In this document: one piece after another, positions 2 through 7,802 of the stretch | How positions within the stretch are numbered: the first letter of the stretch is position 1 | Layout of the letters: the number at the start of each line of letters is the position of its first letter | Assembly (NCBI RefSeq): GCF_009689585.1 | Contig: NZ_AP018694.1 | Span: 3,487,001-3,551,000, forward strand | Direction: 5' to 3' | Length of the DNA stretch: 64,000 nt | Source of the DNA: Aquipluma nitroreducens | Lineage (GTDB): Bacteria > Bacteroidota > Bacteroidia > Bacteroidales > Prolixibacteraceae | The notes under the pieces: model-generated | Told to the model about the DNA's origin: nothing | Database searches by the model: none | The model's input: the letters and a program-made list of their open reading frames with translations, nothing else | Program-made: the position numbers and the translations under genes

Positions 2-1696
2 GATCGGTTTGCTGTTCGCGAAAAAATCATGGTCGATCTGGAAGCCGCCGGAAATGTGGCTAAAGTGGAAGATTACAACAATAAAGTGGGTTATTCGGAG
101 CGCACTCATGTGCCAATTGAACCAAAATTATCAGCCCAGTGGTTCCTGAAAATGGAACCTTTGATAAAACCGGCAACTGAGAATGTGTTGAACGATACCA
201 TTCAGTTTTATCCGCCGAAATTTAAAAATACTTACCGTCACTGGATGGAAAACATCAAAGACTGGTGCATCAGCCGTCAGTTGTGGTGGGGACACCGGAT
301 TCCGGTTTATTACTTGGCAGATGGAGGTTTTGTAGTTGCTGATTCCGACGAAAAAGCATTGGCTTTGGCTCAGGCAAAAACCGGAAATACCAGCCTAAAA
401 ATGACAGACCTGCATCAGGATGAAGATGTACTTGATACCTGGTTCTCAAGCTGGTTGTGGCCAATTTCTGTATTCGACGGCATCAATAAACCCGACAACA
501 AGGAAATCAACTATTACTATCCAACCAACGATTTGGTAACTGGTCCGGATATCATTTTCTTCTGGGTAGCTCGTATGATTATTGCGGGTTACGAATACCG
601 CGATCTGTTCCCATTCAAAAATGTATATTTCACCGGAATGGTGCGTGACAAGCTGCGTCGTAAAATGTCGAAATCGCTGGGTAATTCGCCCGATCCGCTC
701 GACTTGATTGATACGTATGGAGCCGACGGCGTTCGTGTGGGAATGTTACTTTGTTCACCTGCAGGTGGCGATTTGATGTTCGACGAGAGTTTGCCGCAGC
801 AAGGCGCCGGTTTTGTAACCAAAATCTGGAATTCTTTCCGATTGGTAAACGGTTGGGAAGTAGACTATAAAATTCCGCAGCCTGAACATTCCAAATTAGC
901 TATCAGTTGGTTTCACGAAAAATTCAGCCAGATTGTGGAACAAACCGACGATCATTTCGATAAATTCCGCATTTCGGATGCTTTGATGAATGTTTATACA
1001 ACTGTTCGCGACGAGTTCTCCGGATGGTTGCTCGAAATGGTAAAACCAGCATACCAGCAGCCAATCGATGGTAAAACATATGAAGAATTAATTGATATTT
1101 TTGATGAAGTTTTGCGGTTCCTGCATCCGTTTATGCCTTTCGTAAGCGAAGAAGTCTGGCAGTTGCTGAAAGAACGCAAGCAAGGCGATAGCATCACCAT
1201 TAGTTCATGGCCAAAATCGACAGGTTACGACGAAACTTTGATCGCTCAGTTCGAAGATGTAAAAGAAGCCATTGCCGGATTGCGCACCATCCGTACCAAA
1301 AACAACATTCCCAATAAGGATCAACTCGAACTGGCCATAATGGTATGCGACAAAGGTTTTGCTCCTGAATTCAATTCTGTTCTGGTAAAGATGGGTAACC
1401 TGTCTGCACTGAACGTGGTGACAGAAGAAGTAAAACTGGCTGCTTCATTTTTGGTGAAATCGACCACTTTCTTTGTGCCGCTTGGCGGAACAATTGATGT
1501 AGAAGAAGAATTGAAGAAACTTCAGGCTGAATTGGATTACACGAAAGGTTTCCTGAATTCGGTAATGAAGAAGCTGAGCAACGAACGTTTTGTAAGCAGT
1601 GCTCCTGAAGCAGTGGTTGCCACCGAACGCGCCAAACAGGCTGATGCCGAAGCAAAAATCAAAGTTCTGGAAGAACAGATTGCAGGATTGAAATAA
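2..1696 (+). CDS. valS: Valine--tRNA ligase, C-terminal part (5' end outside window)
   Basis: Class I aminoacyl-tRNA synthetase that charges tRNA-Val in the cytoplasm. The reading frame is open from base 2, upstream of the first ATG at 29, so the gene is cut by the window edge rather than starting at that ATG. The visible part has the ValRS signature CISRQLWWGHRIP (about residue 80 counted from base 29), the KMSKS loop in RRKMSKSLGNSPDP (about residue 214), the anticodon-binding helical domain, and a C-terminal coiled coil rich in E, K and L. The HIGH motif would lie upstream. The last 126 bp are repeated in diverged form at 4002-4127, after a two-gene cassette. A hairpin terminator follows at 1724. 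Identity is very secure. Confidence 0.97.
   Translation, partial: DRFAVREKIMVDLEAAGNVAKVEDYNNKVGYSERTHVPIEPKLSAQWFLKMEPLIKPATENVLNDTIQFYPPKFKNTYRHWMENIKDWCISRQLWWGHRIPVYYLADGGFVVADSDEKALALAQAKTGNTSLKMTDLHQDEDVLDTWFSSWLWPISVFDGINKPDNKEINYYYPTNDLVTGPDIIFFWVARMIIAGYEYRDLFPFKNVYFTGMVRDKLRRKMSKSLGNSPDPLDLIDTYGADGVRVGMLLCSPAGGDLMFDESLPQQGAGFVTKIWNSFRLVNGWEVDYKIPQPEHSKLAISWFHEKFSQIVEQTDDHFDKFRISDALMNVYTTVRDEFSGWLLEMVKPAYQQPIDGKTYEELIDIFDEVLRFLHPFMPFVSEEVWQLLKERKQGDSITISSWPKSTGYDETLIAQFEDVKEAIAGLRTIRTKNNIPNKDQLELAIMVCDKGFAPEFNSVLVKMGNLSALNVVTEEVKLAASFLVKSTTFFVPLGGTIDVEEELKKLQAELDYTKGFLNSVMKKLSNERFVSSAPEAVVATERAKQADAEAKIKVLEEQIAGLK
1571..1696 (+). repeat. Left copy of direct repeat (3' end of valS)
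   Basis: The last 42 codons of valS, including the stop. They align without gaps to 4002-4127 with 19 mismatches in 126 bp (about 85% identity) by my count. Positions 1643-1683 form a 41-bp block identical to 4074-4114, while the 72 bp before it carry most of the mismatches. The perfect block is a candidate recombination core. Confidence 0.9.
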
Positions 1697-1723
1697 AGTG
1701 ATATTTGGAATTTAATCGGGGAA

Positions 1724-1766
1724 GGGAATTTTACTATAGGTAAAGTTCCCTTTTATGTTTTTTAAA
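1724..1766 (+). terminator. Rho-independent terminator after valS
   Basis: Stem gggaa/ttccc (1724-1728 with 1746-1750), extended inward by tttac/gtaaa, then a T-rich tract from 1751. It ends the valS transcript before the ATPase gene. Confidence 0.7.
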
Positions 1767-1848
1767 GGTTTAACAGACTGAAAAGTTGTATATTTGGATG
1801 TTACCTTGTTAATTTGATTGTTAACATCGAAAAGAAGGAGAAATCTCT

Positions 1849-3330
1849 ATGATTACAAGAATTAAAATAAACGGATTCAAAAGTTTAGTTGATACAGAGC
1901 TTTATTTGGGTCCATTTACATGTATTGCCGGTGCAAACGCAATAGGTAAATCAAATTTTTTCGATGCTTTAGCTTTCCTATCAAATCTTGCGGATAAAAC
2001 TATTGTTGAGGCTGCAAAGTCTGTTCGAAGTGAGAATCAAAAACATTCGAATATTAGGGATATTTTTTTTAAAAGCGGTGCGGATTACATGTCGAGAATG
2101 ACATTTGAGATTGATATGCTTGTTCCTCAGTCAGGAGTTGATGATTTAGGGCAAATTGCTGAAGCAACAATAACTAGCTTAAAGTACATTCTCCATTTAA
2201 GCTTGAATGACGAAAATAAAGAAGGTGAACCAATTAAAATAGAACGAGAAGAATTACTTCCCATAACTCAAACTCAAACAAAAAGCTGTCTGTTTTTTGA
2301 TTATAAAAAGGATTGGATAGATTCAGTTTTAAAGGGACGACGGTCAACTAAAATACCATTTATTTCTACTGATGGGGAGAAAATTAAACTTCATCAAGAT
2401 GGCAACAAAGGGCGGACTACAGATTTTAACTCCATGAAAATGCCTAGAACACTCATCTCAACCGTAACGGCAGAATCGCCAACAGCCTTTTTGGTTCGAC
2501 AAGAAATGCGTAATTGGATTATGTTGCAATTTGAACCGAGCGCTTTACGTCAACCTAATTCCATATATGAGGTGAAAAACGCTGTGGTTTCAGCGAATGG
2601 ACTTAATTTGCCTGCTACTCTTTTTCGATTAAATAATGATAAAAAAGACAAAGATGTATATCAGGGACTTACAAATAGGTTAAAAGGATTGGTTGAAGAT
2701 GTTTTAGAAATAGTTGTGGATAAAGATGAAAAGAGGGATTTGCTAACATTGCAAGTAAAGTTTAAAGGTGGCCTTGTTTTACCTGCTCAATCATTGTCTG
2801 ACGGAACATTGCGTTTTTTGGGTTTGGCGATAATTGAGGAGGATAGTCTCGGAAGTAGTCTAATTTGTTTAGAGGAACCTGAAAATGGGATCAATCCTCG
2901 AAAAATTCAAGAAATGGTTGAATTATTGGAGGGTATGGCAACAAATACTGACTTTTTTGTTGATGAAGACAACCCATTGCGACAGGTTATTATCAATACC
3001 CATTCGCCTGGAGTCGTCAGTGCCGTTTCGGACGAAAGTCTGTATCTCGCTAAAAGTAAAGAGAGTTTTCATGATGACTTTAATAAGAAAATTACATATA
3101 CCTGTTTTTCTGCACTAAAAAACACATGGAAAACGAATAATTCATTAGCTCAAATAACCTCTCTTGGTGAAATAACTGCTTATCTGGATAAAACTGTTGA
3201 TATCGACAATTCCAATGAGGTACATGACGAGAAAGTGATATATCAGAAAACTGTTCCTTCATCTTCTTTGAAGAAAAAAACTGTTGTAGAAAATGTGATT
3301 CAATGTAAAATTGATTGGGACAGTTTATGA
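1849..3330 (+). CDS. AAA family ATPase (AAA_21/OLD-like), putative defence ATPase
   Basis: 493-residue ABC/SMC-type ATPase of the AAA_15/AAA_21 group. The N-terminus ITRIKINGFKSL is the usual beta-strand start of the group. Walker A is GANAIGKS (residues 28-35), an ABC-signature-like LSDGT lies at about 316-320, Walker B is LICLEEPENG (about 338-347), and a switch histidine is in VIINTHSP (H385). The middle third is the expected helical insertion. A Shine-Dalgarno-like aaggag lies upstream. The stop overlaps the next gene's start (ATGA), so the two are almost certainly co-translated. In this family an ATPase paired with a TOPRIM protein usually acts in anti-phage or anti-plasmid defence (OLD, Gabija, PARIS and AbiL logic). 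That role is inferred here from architecture and context. Confidence 0.8.
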   Translation: MITRIKINGFKSLVDTELYLGPFTCIAGANAIGKSNFFDALAFLSNLADKTIVEAAKSVRSENQKHSNIRDIFFKSGADYMSRMTFEIDMLVPQSGVDDLGQIAEATITSLKYILHLSLNDENKEGEPIKIEREELLPITQTQTKSCLFFDYKKDWIDSVLKGRRSTKIPFISTDGEKIKLHQDGNKGRTTDFNSMKMPRTLISTVTAESPTAFLVRQEMRNWIMLQFEPSALRQPNSIYEVKNAVVSANGLNLPATLFRLNNDKKDKDVYQGLTNRLKGLVEDVLEIVVDKDEKRDLLTLQVKFKGGLVLPAQSLSDGTLRFLGLAIIEEDSLGSSLICLEEPENGINPRKIQEMVELLEGMATNTDFFVDEDNPLRQVIINTHSPGVVSAVSDESLYLAKSKESFHDDFNKKITYTCFSALKNTWKTNNSLAQITSLGEITAYLDKTVDIDNSNEVHDEKVIYQKTVPSSSLKKKTVVENVIQCKIDWDSL

Positions 3331-3965
3331 AAGAACTCAAATATACATTGATTGCTGACGGCAGTTCTGACTCAGTACTGTTAAAAATTATCAAATGGTC
3401 GTTAGATGATCTATATCCCAGGCTTTCTAATGATGGAAGTTTTGCAGATTTCAGACAAATGCAAAAACCGCCCAAGCGGTTGGTTGAAAAAGTAAAAGCG
3501 GCAAAGTTGTATTATCCTTTCGATATTTTATTTGTACACCGAGATGCAGAATCCGCAAATCACAGAATAATAGCACAAAGATATCAGGAAGTAAGTTCTG
3601 AACTTAAGAAGGATGATCTTGATAGAACAATTTGTGTTGTTCCAATAAAGATGATGGAAACGTGGCTGCTTATAGATCAAGATGCCATTAAAAAGGCCGC
3701 TGGGAATAGGAACTACAATGGTAATATTAACTTACCTTTGATAAGAAATCTGGAACGAGAGAGCCAGCCTAAAGAATTATTACATAATATATTGAGAGAG
3801 GTAAGTGGGCGGAAGAACCGAAATCTTAGGAATTTCAACATAGATAAAACGGTTCATTTAGTTGCCGAGAATATAGAAGATTACAGTCCTCTAAGAAATT
3901 TAGTTGCATTTCAGGCGTTTGAAGAACAATTGAAAAAGGTTGTGGACATATTTTTAGAAAATTAG
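3327..3965 (+). CDS. TOPRIM-like (DUF4276-type?) partner protein
   Basis: 212 residues, starting at the ATG that overlaps the ATPase stop (ATGA). An upstream in-frame start at 3315 lies inside the ATPase gene and is less likely. The N-terminus IADGSSDSVLL (D11, D15) resembles the first TOPRIM strand, where an acidic residue is followed by G-x-x-D. VHRDAE (D73, E75) resembles the later acidic D-x-D/E motif that binds metal. Further recognisable blocks are PIKMMETWLL and the C-terminal YSPLRNLVAFQAFEEQL. I read it as the effector nuclease of a two-component defence unit with the upstream ATPase. The family name (DUF4276 or RloB/AbiLii-like) is tentative. No membrane segment or signal peptide. 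Confidence 0.65.
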   Translation: MKELKYTLIADGSSDSVLLKIIKWSLDDLYPRLSNDGSFADFRQMQKPPKRLVEKVKAAKLYYPFDILFVHRDAESANHRIIAQRYQEVSSELKKDDLDRTICVVPIKMMETWLLIDQDAIKKAAGNRNYNGNINLPLIRNLERESQPKELLHNILREVSGRKNRNLRNFNIDKTVHLVAENIEDYSPLRNLVAFQAFEEQLKKVVDIFLEN

Positions 3966-4001
3966 CCTAAATAAAGAATTCAAGAACCTGATTTGCCGTA
4001 A

Positions 4002-4127
4002 AAACTCAGCAACGAACGTTTTGTGAGTAGTGCTCCGGAAGCGGTTGTTGCGATAGAAAGAGCGAAGCAAGCCGATGCCGAAGCAAAAATCAAAGTTCTG
4101 GAAGAACAGATTGCTAGCTTGAAATAA
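4002..4127 (+). pseudogene. valS': Duplicated, diverged valS 3' end (fragment)
   Basis: 42 codons in frame ending in taa, encoding the ValRS coiled-coil tail with only two amino acid changes (T to I, G to S) from the tail at 1571-1696. Most of the 19 nucleotide differences are synonymous, including rare ata and aga codons. That pattern points to divergence in a functional gene of another lineage and not to decay of a recent local copy. There is no start codon, so it is not an expressed protein on its own. It marks the right edge of the cassette. Two strong hairpins follow. Confidence 0.88.
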
Positions 4128-4141
4128 ACCTATCAAAAGGT

Positions 4142-4174
4142 AGTGAGCGGGTGACTTAAAGTCACCCGCTCACT
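4142..4174. repeat. Perfect 16-bp inverted repeat with 1-nt centre
   Basis: Arms 4142-4157 and 4159-4174 are exact reverse complements around one base. It could be a cruciform, a terminator stem for the original valS transcript, or part of an attachment site. No T-tract follows directly. Confidence 0.75.
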
Positions 4175-4246: not shown

Positions 4247-5584
4247 TTACTTTGTTTTGATTACCTCAAACTCAACTCTGCGATTTAACGCCCTACCTTC
4301 AGGAGTATCGTTAGTTGCAGCAGGATTCGCTTCTCCAAATCCTTCCTGCTGTTCTATACGATTCTTCTTTATTTTACCCGAAACGATTGATTTTACAACA
4401 GAACTTGCACGACTTTTCGATAAATTGAGGTTGTAGTTGTCAGCACCCTGAGAGTCAGCATAACCGCTTACCTTCACCTTATAATCGCCGTTTTCGTTAA
4501 GTATATTAACGAGCTTGTCAATTTTTCCTTTTTCCTGAACGGTAAAAGTCGATTTATTTGAATCGAAATATACAGGCTCAACTTTCATTCTTTCAGCTTC
4601 AATTTCTTCGGCTGTTTTTTCAACAATAGGACATCCTTTTGCATCAACCTTTGCACCTTTTTGAGTGTCCGGACATTTGTCCAGATAGTCTGCAACACCA
4701 TCGCCATCCGAATCTACCGGACATCCTTTTCCGTCAACTTTTGCATCTTTGGGAGTGTCAGGGCATTTGTCCAAATAATCAGCAACACCGTCGCTATCCG
4801 AGTCAACCGGGCAACCTTTTGTATCAACTTTTACACCTTTAGGCGTGTCCGGACATTTGTCATCTTTATCGGCAACTCCATCACCGTCAGCATCGGGGCA
4901 ACCTTTTAGTGAGGTTAATCCGGCAACTGTTGGACAGTCGTCCATGTAATCAGCAACTCCATCGCCGTCAGTATCTATTGGACAACCATTGGCATCAACA
5001 GCAACACCTGTAGGGGTATTCGGACATTTGTCTTTTTTATCAGAAACGCCATCCATGTCAGAATCTTTGGTTTTCCCAAAATCGAATTCAATACCAACGG
5101 TAGCTTTCCAGAAGTTATCTCTGGTATTTTTGCCGGCAACGGTTGTCTCAATTCCATTGATATAAGCGGCTTCCAGATAAAGTGCAGTGGCCGGACTTAT
5201 GTAATATTTACCACCAACACCTAAGTTGAAGTTTAATCCTGATTCGCCATTATCAGCAAGATAGCCAGGTCCGGCGAATAAATACGGACGGAAGTTTTTG
5301 CTTTCGTTGGTCAACTTAAATCTTAAGTTGAGGAAAGGATTCACGAAGTCAAGGTTGTTGGTTAGTTTGGAATTGAATAATCCAAAGTCGCTTTTCAACA
5401 TCAGATCCAGTCGCGGACTTAAGTATCTGCTTAAATACAATTCGGGAATAAAGCCAATGCTTGAATTATTCAGATTCCCGTAAGCGCCAACTCCAGCGCC
5501 AATTCCCCATTTTTTATCTTCGGTTTGTGAAAATGCTGATTGAAGAAGCAGGAATGCAGTAAAAAGTAAAAGTATTTTTTTCAT
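4247..5584 (-). CDS. OmpA family outer membrane protein with TSP type 3 repeats
   Basis: 445 residues. The signal peptide MKKILLLFTAFLLLQSAFSQ is followed by an N-terminal beta-barrel (to about residue 170), then about five thrombospondin type 3 calcium-binding repeats (DTDGDGVADYMDDCP and relatives, about residues 175-325), then a C-terminal OmpA peptidoglycan-binding domain (FDSNKSTF to NRRVEFEV). It anchors the outer membrane to the cell wall and may act as a porin. The repeat block is typical of the Bacteroidota OmpA/OprF type. It is the last gene of a minus-strand envelope group and ends at a strong shared terminator. Identity secure; exact pore function unknown. Confidence 0.93.
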   Translation of the reverse strand: MKKILLLFTAFLLLQSAFSQTEDKKWGIGAGVGAYGNLNNSSIGFIPELYLSRYLSPRLDLMLKSDFGLFNSKLTNNLDFVNPFLNLRFKLTNESKNFRPYLFAGPGYLADNGESGLNFNLGVGGKYYISPATALYLEAAYINGIETTVAGKNTRDNFWKATVGIEFDFGKTKDSDMDGVSDKKDKCPNTPTGVAVDANGCPIDTDGDGVADYMDDCPTVAGLTSLKGCPDADGDGVADKDDKCPDTPKGVKVDTKGCPVDSDSDGVADYLDKCPDTPKDAKVDGKGCPVDSDGDGVADYLDKCPDTQKGAKVDAKGCPIVEKTAEEIEAERMKVEPVYFDSNKSTFTVQEKGKIDKLVNILNENGDYKVKVSGYADSQGADNYNLNLSKSRASSVVKSIVSGKIKKNRIEQQEGFGEANPAATNDTPEGRALNRRVEFEVIKTK

Positions 5585-7023: not shown

Positions 7024-7065
7024 TAGTAAAATGGAGGCTATTTTTAGTAAAATGGAGGCTATTTT
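7024..7065. repeat. 21-bp tandem duplication at the aquaporin stop codon
   Basis: Two perfect head-to-tail copies (7024-7044 and 7045-7065). The second contains the aqpZ stop codon (7059-7061). Probably a slippage or recent duplication event. Confidence 0.9.
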
Positions 7066-7733
7066 GACAGTTCTTTGTAAACAATGCCAGCTACAACAGC
7101 TCCTGCAATGGGGACAACAATAAATACCCAAAGTTGAGCCAAGGCCCAATCGCCAACGAATAAAGCCTGACTAATACTTCTGGCTGGGTTTACTGAAGTG
7201 TTTGTAACCGGAATGCTTACCAAATGAATCAGAGTCAATGCCAATCCAATGGCCAATCCTGCAAAACCTTTTGGGGCTTTTTCGTCGGTTGCTCCGAGTA
7301 TAATAATCAGGAACATAAATGTCATAATAAACTCGGTGAGAATGGCTGCCAATAAACTGTATTGACCTGGAGAATGCTCGCCGTAACCATTGGCGGCAAA
7401 TGAGCCAATCGGGGAACCGTTTCCGGTAACAATAAAATAAAGGGCTGTTGCAGCTAAAATTCCTCCGGCTACCTGAGAAATAATATAAGGCAATACTCCT
7501 TTTGCATCGAATCGTCCGCCAACCCACAAGCCAATTGTGACTGCCGGATTGAGATGAGCTCCTGAAATATGACCAATTGAATAGGCCATTGTAAGTACAG
7601 TTAGTCCGAATGCAAGAGAGACTCCTGCCAATCCGATCCCAACGTTAGGAAATCCTGCAGCTAACAGTGCACTTCCGCAGCCGCCAAATACGAGCCAAAA
7701 TGTTCCGATAAATTCTGCTAAATTCTTTTTCAT
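7059..7733 (-). CDS. aqpZ: Aquaporin Z
   Basis: 224 residues from the ATG at 7733 ([18 protein letters not shown]). An upstream in-frame start at 7802 would add an implausible charged leader. A six-helix inner membrane water channel of the MIP family with both NPA boxes, [10 protein letters not shown] (about residues 57-66) and [10 protein letters not shown] (about 177-186), and the AqpZ-type G-rich helices. It is the first gene of a minus-strand group with outer membrane proteins. The adjacent divergent two-component system suggests, but does not prove, regulation by osmotic or envelope conditions. Confidence 0.95.
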
Positions 7734-7802
7734 CGCAATTCTTTTTTTAGAGTTGAGTGTAATATCTCTTTCGGGGAGATATGGTGAAATAATCGTAAAC
7801 AA

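Follow-up and report, generated by a model that had tools for sequence, protein, structure and literature searches.

Cassettes enclosed between copies of the valS 3' end in Aquipluma nitroreducens and related genomes

In Aquipluma nitroreducens and several related genomes, the 3' end of valS is followed by a few cargo genes and then by a second copy of the gene's own tail. This arrangement (valS-cargo-tail) recurs with different cargo, and the interpretation that we favour, which has about an even chance of being correct, is that the gene end serves as a recurrent landing site for small cassettes without a recombinase, which would enter by homologous exchange on the left and an illegitimate join on the right. 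The window, meaning the whole stretch of 64,000 nucleotides that was analysed, begins within valS and carries one such cassette (Table 1). An earlier note on this DNA had read the locus as the arrival of a cassette at the valS end and had proposed to look for a relative lacking the cassette, for other cargo between two tails and for the lineage to which each tail belongs; all three checks came out in favour of that reading.

Table 1. Features of the valS region in the window
Feature	Position	Strand	Basis
valS 3' part; window begins within gene	2..1696	+	ORF, valS relatives
V, functional valS tail	1571..1696	+	repeat search, comparison with other valS
41-bp block, matched by 4074-4114	1643..1683	+	identical in both copies
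Left border of insert: terminator-like hairpin 1720-1754, promoter-like TTGTATATTTG 1786-1796	1697..1848	+	consensus matches only
AAA_21/AAA_15 ATPase, HEC-01A-like (P0001)	1849..3330	+	Pfam; PADLOC HEC-01A 7.5e-89
DUF4276 protein, HEC-01B-like (P0002)	3327..3965	+	Pfam 2.9e-5, below gathering score; PADLOC HEC-01B 1.1e-25
T, second valS tail, orphan with stop codon	4002..4127	+	repeat search, alignment
Palindrome 3' of T; copy of a dispersed genome-wide palindrome, not valS-specific	4142..4174		repeat and pattern search
ompA-like gene, start of old valS flank	4247..5584	-	directly behind valS in G017

The valS gene ends at 1696 with a TAA stop codon. A repeat search of the window returns the pair 1571-1697 and 4002-4128, gap-free and 85% identical, which confirms that the final 126 bp of valS recur at 4002-4127 as the earlier note had described. 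A search of the whole genome places the tail at only these two sites (second copy, E = 3.3e-35), and the window holds no older tail remnants, the best other matches having E values of 0.3 or weaker. V and T differ at 19 of 126 nucleotides; of the codons affected, 14 are changed synonymously and 2 non-synonymously (T->I and G->S), so the earlier count of 19 nearly all synonymous mismatches with two amino acid changes is correct. Neutral simulations (n = 3000, 19 changes each) yielded a mean of 13.1 non-synonymous codons and a minimum of 8, and none of the 3000 came near the observed 2. The ratio of synonymous to non-synonymous codon differences between V and T is 15:7 in G009, 10:2 in G018, 18:10 for tail 1 of G004 and 17:6 in G019. 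Since these differences are mostly synonymous, the tails diverged while they still belonged to functional valS genes, in line with the divergence under selection that the earlier note proposed. The identical 41-bp block also lies where it had been placed. It is less special than it looked, as the valS of G008 is likewise identical there at 41 of 41 positions; the V/T pairs of other genomes have no counterpart of this block.

The insert between the tails measures 2.4 kb, has a G+C content of about 35% against about 44% in valS, and contains two overlapping genes. An AAA ATPase gene is followed by a HEC-01B (DUF4276, sub-threshold) gene, the same order as the two parts of the PADLOC HEC-01 models, and judging by these profile matches the cargo is probably a HEC-01-type candidate anti-phage pair. 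The cassette had been labelled ATPase/TOPRIM; Pfam and PADLOC bear out the ATPase, and the TOPRIM label of the second gene is not confirmed, its matches being to DUF4276 and HEC-01B instead. No PDB chain was matched by the sequence of this second protein, and its AlphaFold model (mean pLDDT 37.8) is too poor for a fold assignment. The promoter-like TTGTATATTTG of the left border is also present in the leaders of the cassettes in G009 and G018. The palindrome behind T is perfect, with the core GTGACTNNAAGTCAC, and is a REP-like element with copies in many genomes of the genus. It was considered as an attachment site and rejected, since the core occurs at 20 places in the genome, compared with one for the reversed control pattern.

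The sister genome G017 provides the empty site. For about 48 kb its gene order follows that of the window, with most blocks 86-94% identical, and it lacks both the cassette and the second tail: behind its single valS tail, at about 110 bp, stands the ompA-like gene that here stands behind T. A 594-bp stretch beginning 8 bp after T is 94% identical to the DNA behind the valS stop of G017. As valS is joined directly to the same flank in G017, the difference of 2431 bp reflects either a gain by this lineage or a loss from G017. Here the insert lies between long direct repeats, and the related genome has one copy and no insert.

Recurrence was assessed in a genus sample of this genome (G000) and 22 others, G007 and G002 of which hold valS in part only, and in a family sample of 66 other genomes (11, plus 55 of the 57 loci of a further set). 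The valS-cargo-tail layout is present in at least five of the 23 genus genomes (G000, G004, G009, G018 and G019) and in at least one of the 66 others (G080), both counts being lower bounds because some loci extend less than 3 kb behind valS. A wider scan of 80 loci revealed no tail-cargo genomes beyond these six. In G021, a 27-bp remnant of the tail (E 0.007) lies shortly behind one of two valS ends, and the DNA right after it is the valS flank of G001. The two valS ends of G021 differ and are found on two contigs of one assembly (L126 and L132), which is possibly a mixed bin. Weak short matches at L076, L077, L082, L085, L094 and L146 (E 0.05 to 0.8) and matches of 15 to 35 bp at L225, L236 and L248 were left uncounted as tails.

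The cargo is varied. The HEC-01-like pair is found in G000 and G009; G018 carries a PADLOC 'cll'-like protein, a RES-domain protein and one protein without family assignment; and G004, G019 and G080 carry AAA_14/DUF4143-type ATPases, accompanied in G004 by a DUF3103 protein and one protein without family assignment and in G080 by two proteins of the latter kind. A defence link is recognisable in only part of this cargo. None of the 14 cargo proteins scanned with Pfam (small ORFs left out) contains a recombinase or integrase domain, in agreement with the earlier statement that no integrase lies inside the cassette. The presence of other cargo between two tails in G018, G004, G019 and G080 supports the suggestion that the valS end is a small island hotspot.

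With the DNA profile, no tails were detected behind valS in G006, G010, G022, G008, G015, G003, G001 and G020. In G006, an ATPase of the G004/G019 kind stands behind valS, and in G010 (L135, 2184-5267) McrBC-type genes lie between valS and a phosphoesterase-like gene. Such tail-less cargo counts against a tail always being left, or else those tails have been lost. A separate peculiarity of G010 (L135) and G022 (L136) lies in ValS between about 160 and 68 residues from the end, where identity to the rest of the genus falls to 33-49%. This stretch of about 90 residues, which includes insertions, is a swapped or very fast-evolving module; the adjoining body and tail are mostly 86-100% identical.

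The old flank is preserved behind the cargo. In all five genus genomes, the last tail is followed by the gene that stands behind valS in cargo-free relatives, and three different old flanks occupy this position across the five; in G019, about 380 bp separate the tail from the flank gene. Stacked arrays of the form valS-cargo-tail-cargo-tail occur in G004 and G080. The order in G004 is valS, two genes, tail 1, ATPase gene, tail 2 and native flank, and its ATPase gene together with the left border is the DNA found directly behind valS in G019 and G006. The proximal tail of G004 has an open frame and the distal tail is decayed, with 7 synonymous and 10 non-synonymous codon differences and a stop. 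G080 has a distal tail of about 40 bp and a longer proximal one, which is damaged too, so in both arrays the distal tail is the more decayed. From this order and the distal decay, newcomers seem to enter beside valS and to shift older cargo outwards.

Gene-end repeats, taken as direct repeats of 80-600 bp at a spacing of 0.6-8 kb with one copy covering an ORF end, were sought around these loci and more widely. In 464 kb of G000 (8% of the genome) the valS pair is the only one, and 1.25 Mb from 109 loci of relatives contain five pairs, all at valS; the 109 loci lie around valS or the cassette and partly overlap one another, and the search missed the tail of G019. As the scans cover 8% of the genome and loci of valS or the cassette, further sites elsewhere in these genomes are possible.

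The HEC-01-like ATPases of G000 and G009 are 77.8% identical, and six homologues in other genera and families are 65-75% identical to that of G000; the last 201 ValS residues of G000 and G009 are 96% identical. An ATPase tree groups the two with only 57% support. Close homologues occur in 2 of 23 genus genomes, both times at valS; of 392 further genomes in the order, 4 contain them. The HEC-01 pairs of G000 and G009 are likely two separate arrivals. Relatives in G126, G117 and G266 lie with type III restriction-modification genes, whereas the window pair stands alone behind valS. In G126 the pair is framed by a DNA methylase and a type III Res gene; in G117 the Res gene follows the ATPase and the second HEC-01 gene was not found; and in G266 the neighbours resemble the methylase and Res genes of G126.

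G009 and G018 carry unrelated cargo after leaders that are 77% identical over 137 bp, a resemblance that suggests that cargo is exchanged behind a common leader. A 20-base promoter-like stretch of these leaders occurs at 3 places in 23 genomes (up to 2 mismatches), the third being in G004 (L290, C343, 1501-1534), about 30 bp upstream of a type III-like modification gene that is 54% identical to the G126 methylase. The shared leader and the methylase link tie the cassettes to defence islands. No long repeats surround HEC-01 relatives elsewhere in 8 locus records from 6 genomes, most of which are cut to a 1.5-kb flank or by contig ends; at L282, a 47-bp repeat lies beside the HEC-01 pair, not around it. 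Carriage of the cassette by phages or plasmids was rejected, since peptide patterns found no cassette relative in viral contigs and a plasmid collection returned three distant records only (28 to 43% identity; 1.2 to 11.9 Mb long).

The favoured course of events begins with DNA carrying a valS end and cargo. On its left side, ordinary homologous recombination would exchange this DNA into the resident valS, keeping the essential gene whole. The other end would be joined illegitimately at a variable point within the resident valS tail, and this tail, still attached to the old flank, would be pushed to the far side of the cargo. The product would be valS-cargo-tail-old flank, and a later event at the same place would yield valS-cargo 2-tail-cargo 1-tail. 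Because each insertion would leave an extra valS tail, the gene would survive and the spot would stay open for the next arrival. Once formed, two tails would be homologous arms, through which cassettes could be exchanged between species with unrelated flanks. A mechanism at the level of recombination in the tail is probable; that homologous plus illegitimate recombination is the cause, and which copy is the newcomer, we infer. The right-hand junctions are sharp and differ between genomes. Competence-type genes (ComEC and DprA families) are present, and as the same profiles also match controls such as E. coli, their presence says little.

Tails begin at about -128 in G000, -158 in G009, -122 in G018, -251 and -101 in G004 and -129 in G019, where a weakly matching further piece lies upstream; others begin at about -125 and -42 in G080 and at -27 in G021. 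The repeat length therefore varies between insertions, from about 27 to 251 bp. Tail starts that differ between genomes imply that there is no fixed att site, and a fixed att core was rejected because the V/T pairs have neither a constant repeat length nor a shared identical core. Compared with integrative elements, the cassettes lack an integrase of their own (14 cargo proteins) as well as this constancy of length and core. The likeness to elements at tRNA genes, drawn by the earlier note, fails in this detail, as the tail copy has no fixed length; its other part, the arrival of a cassette at the valS end, is supported. Integration by a site-specific recombinase acting in trans, with the valS end as attachment site and the cassettes as non-autonomous passengers, would explain why one site is reused with the gene always restored, and 4 of the 9 tail starts fall at about -122 to -129, a clustering that a random join would not predict. 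The absence of a recombinase domain from the scanned cargo, the spread of tail lengths and the lack of a common core make it distinctly unlikely. A pair of equally oriented copies at a single locus could also arise if the valS end had been duplicated locally in tandem and DNA had then inserted between the duplicates, or could be an assembly artefact. This is highly improbable given that identity between the copies is 85% and nearly all changes are synonymous, that V resembles another species more closely than it resembles T, that the sister G017 has one copy and that the layout returns with other cargo in five other genomes.

The relationships of the tails bear on which copy is new. V and T are not each other's closest relatives: over 126 bp, V is nearest to G017 (119 identical) and T to G003 (108), and T matches V at 107 positions and the G017 tail at 105 (summed from parts). 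At the 42 third positions, T and G017 differ 19 times, V and G017 7 times and T and V 16 times. V is sister to G017, and T is as distant from G017 as other species of the genus are. At four positions T has a base that is absent from the 17 genus valS tails, and 140 family genomes include no close match that might be its donor. For the T of G009 the best matches are G011 and G014, which share the native flank of G009, and the V of G009 is about as close to G014. In 60-bp steps along valS, G000 and G017 are 72-95% identical from about -1560 to -204; the final 204 bp are 95.6% identical and the flanks mostly 88-100%. Of 2000 shuffles, 5 produce a change at least as strong as that at -204, a number that rises to 81 when third positions alone are used, and across the genus the region from -400 to -204 is fast-evolving. 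Identity to G017 is 81 and 77% in the 120 bp that follow the stop codon of T and 97-98% beyond them, which fits T and the adjoining flank being one diverged piece; ordinary intergenic divergence would explain it equally.

One reading of these patterns is that the resident valS was of a diverged type with T as its tail, and that the last 204 bp of V arrived with the cargo from a G017-like donor. Alternatively, V may be native and T may have arrived with the cargo. The claim that a cassette arrived carrying or recreating the valS end is thus upheld as to the arrival, and the cassette may either have brought the second tail or displaced the resident one. A native V and a foreign T would also result if a ready-made valS-cargo-tail unit of a donor was copied by two homologous crossovers, or by a single crossover of a tail-recombined circle. 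Such a unit gains from the contrast between V, which is near the valS of the sister, and T, which is not (119 against 105 of 126; 7 against 19 of the third positions), from the four bases peculiar to T and from the common leader of G009 and G018, which looks as if cargo had been swapped between common arms. The first duplication and the differing tail starts are left unexplained, however, and the right-hand junctions of HEC-01 differ between G000 and G009, so that no single pre-formed unit spread unchanged. We consider this account possible and somewhat unlikely.

Landing by homologous exchange and an illegitimate join has partial parallels. Restriction-modification genes have been reported to insert with long, variable target duplication (Nobusato et al., 2000, as cited in PMC3031569 and PMC4978471). 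As those citing papers present it, the process shares with the valS locus a defence-type cargo without its own recombinase, long variable direct repeats and a single copy where the insert is lacking. The valS repeat differs in that it is always the end of one essential gene, in several species and with different cargo, is stacked and has copies from different lineages. In Vibrio cholerae, arrays of displaced T6SS immunity genes are attributed in PMC5361080 to homology-facilitated illegitimate recombination. Its description of one homologous anchor, one illegitimate join, a newcomer beside the constant part, an outward shift of the older material and decayed 3' ends that stay behind would be matched here; the displaced part there is an accessory effector gene, whereas at valS it is the tail of a housekeeping synthetase that must stay intact. 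Many hotspots without integrases show more recombination in the flanking core genes, according to PMC5635113. Cargo turnover beside a core gene and the lack of mobility genes are common to both, as may be signs of recombination in the core gene, in contrast to the arms, which at valS are copies of the same gene end, so that the other flank need not match. Among the papers listed by a literature search, nothing pertinent on valS as such a landing site was found. The novel aspect relative to these known kinds is the use of the end of one essential gene as both arms, repeatedly and in several species.

The locus offers a repeated natural example of partly defence-type cassettes moving without a recombinase of their own, at a landing site where the need for a working essential gene removes broken products. 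Lineage and order are preserved in the tails, which makes the locus a readable archive of successive arrivals, and the spread of defence genes without mobility genes becomes a directly testable question. A broader and rather doubtful proposal is that every insertion leaves a further valS tail to act as a new homologous arm, which would make the valS end a docking site that renews itself without an integrase. Cassettes could then be stacked, swapped or added in species whose flanks are unrelated, in an integron-like array driven by housekeeping recombination. On this view, a dedicated nuclease or recombinase that guides insertion may even underlie the cluster of tail starts near -125.

Further along the window, two repeats of other kinds are found. 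The ompA-like gene contains imperfect repeats of about 90 bp at 4624-5065, and an exact 21-bp tandem duplication (TAGTAAAATGGAGGCTATTTT) occupies 7024-7065, just outside the end of the ORF at 7059-7802 on the minus strand.
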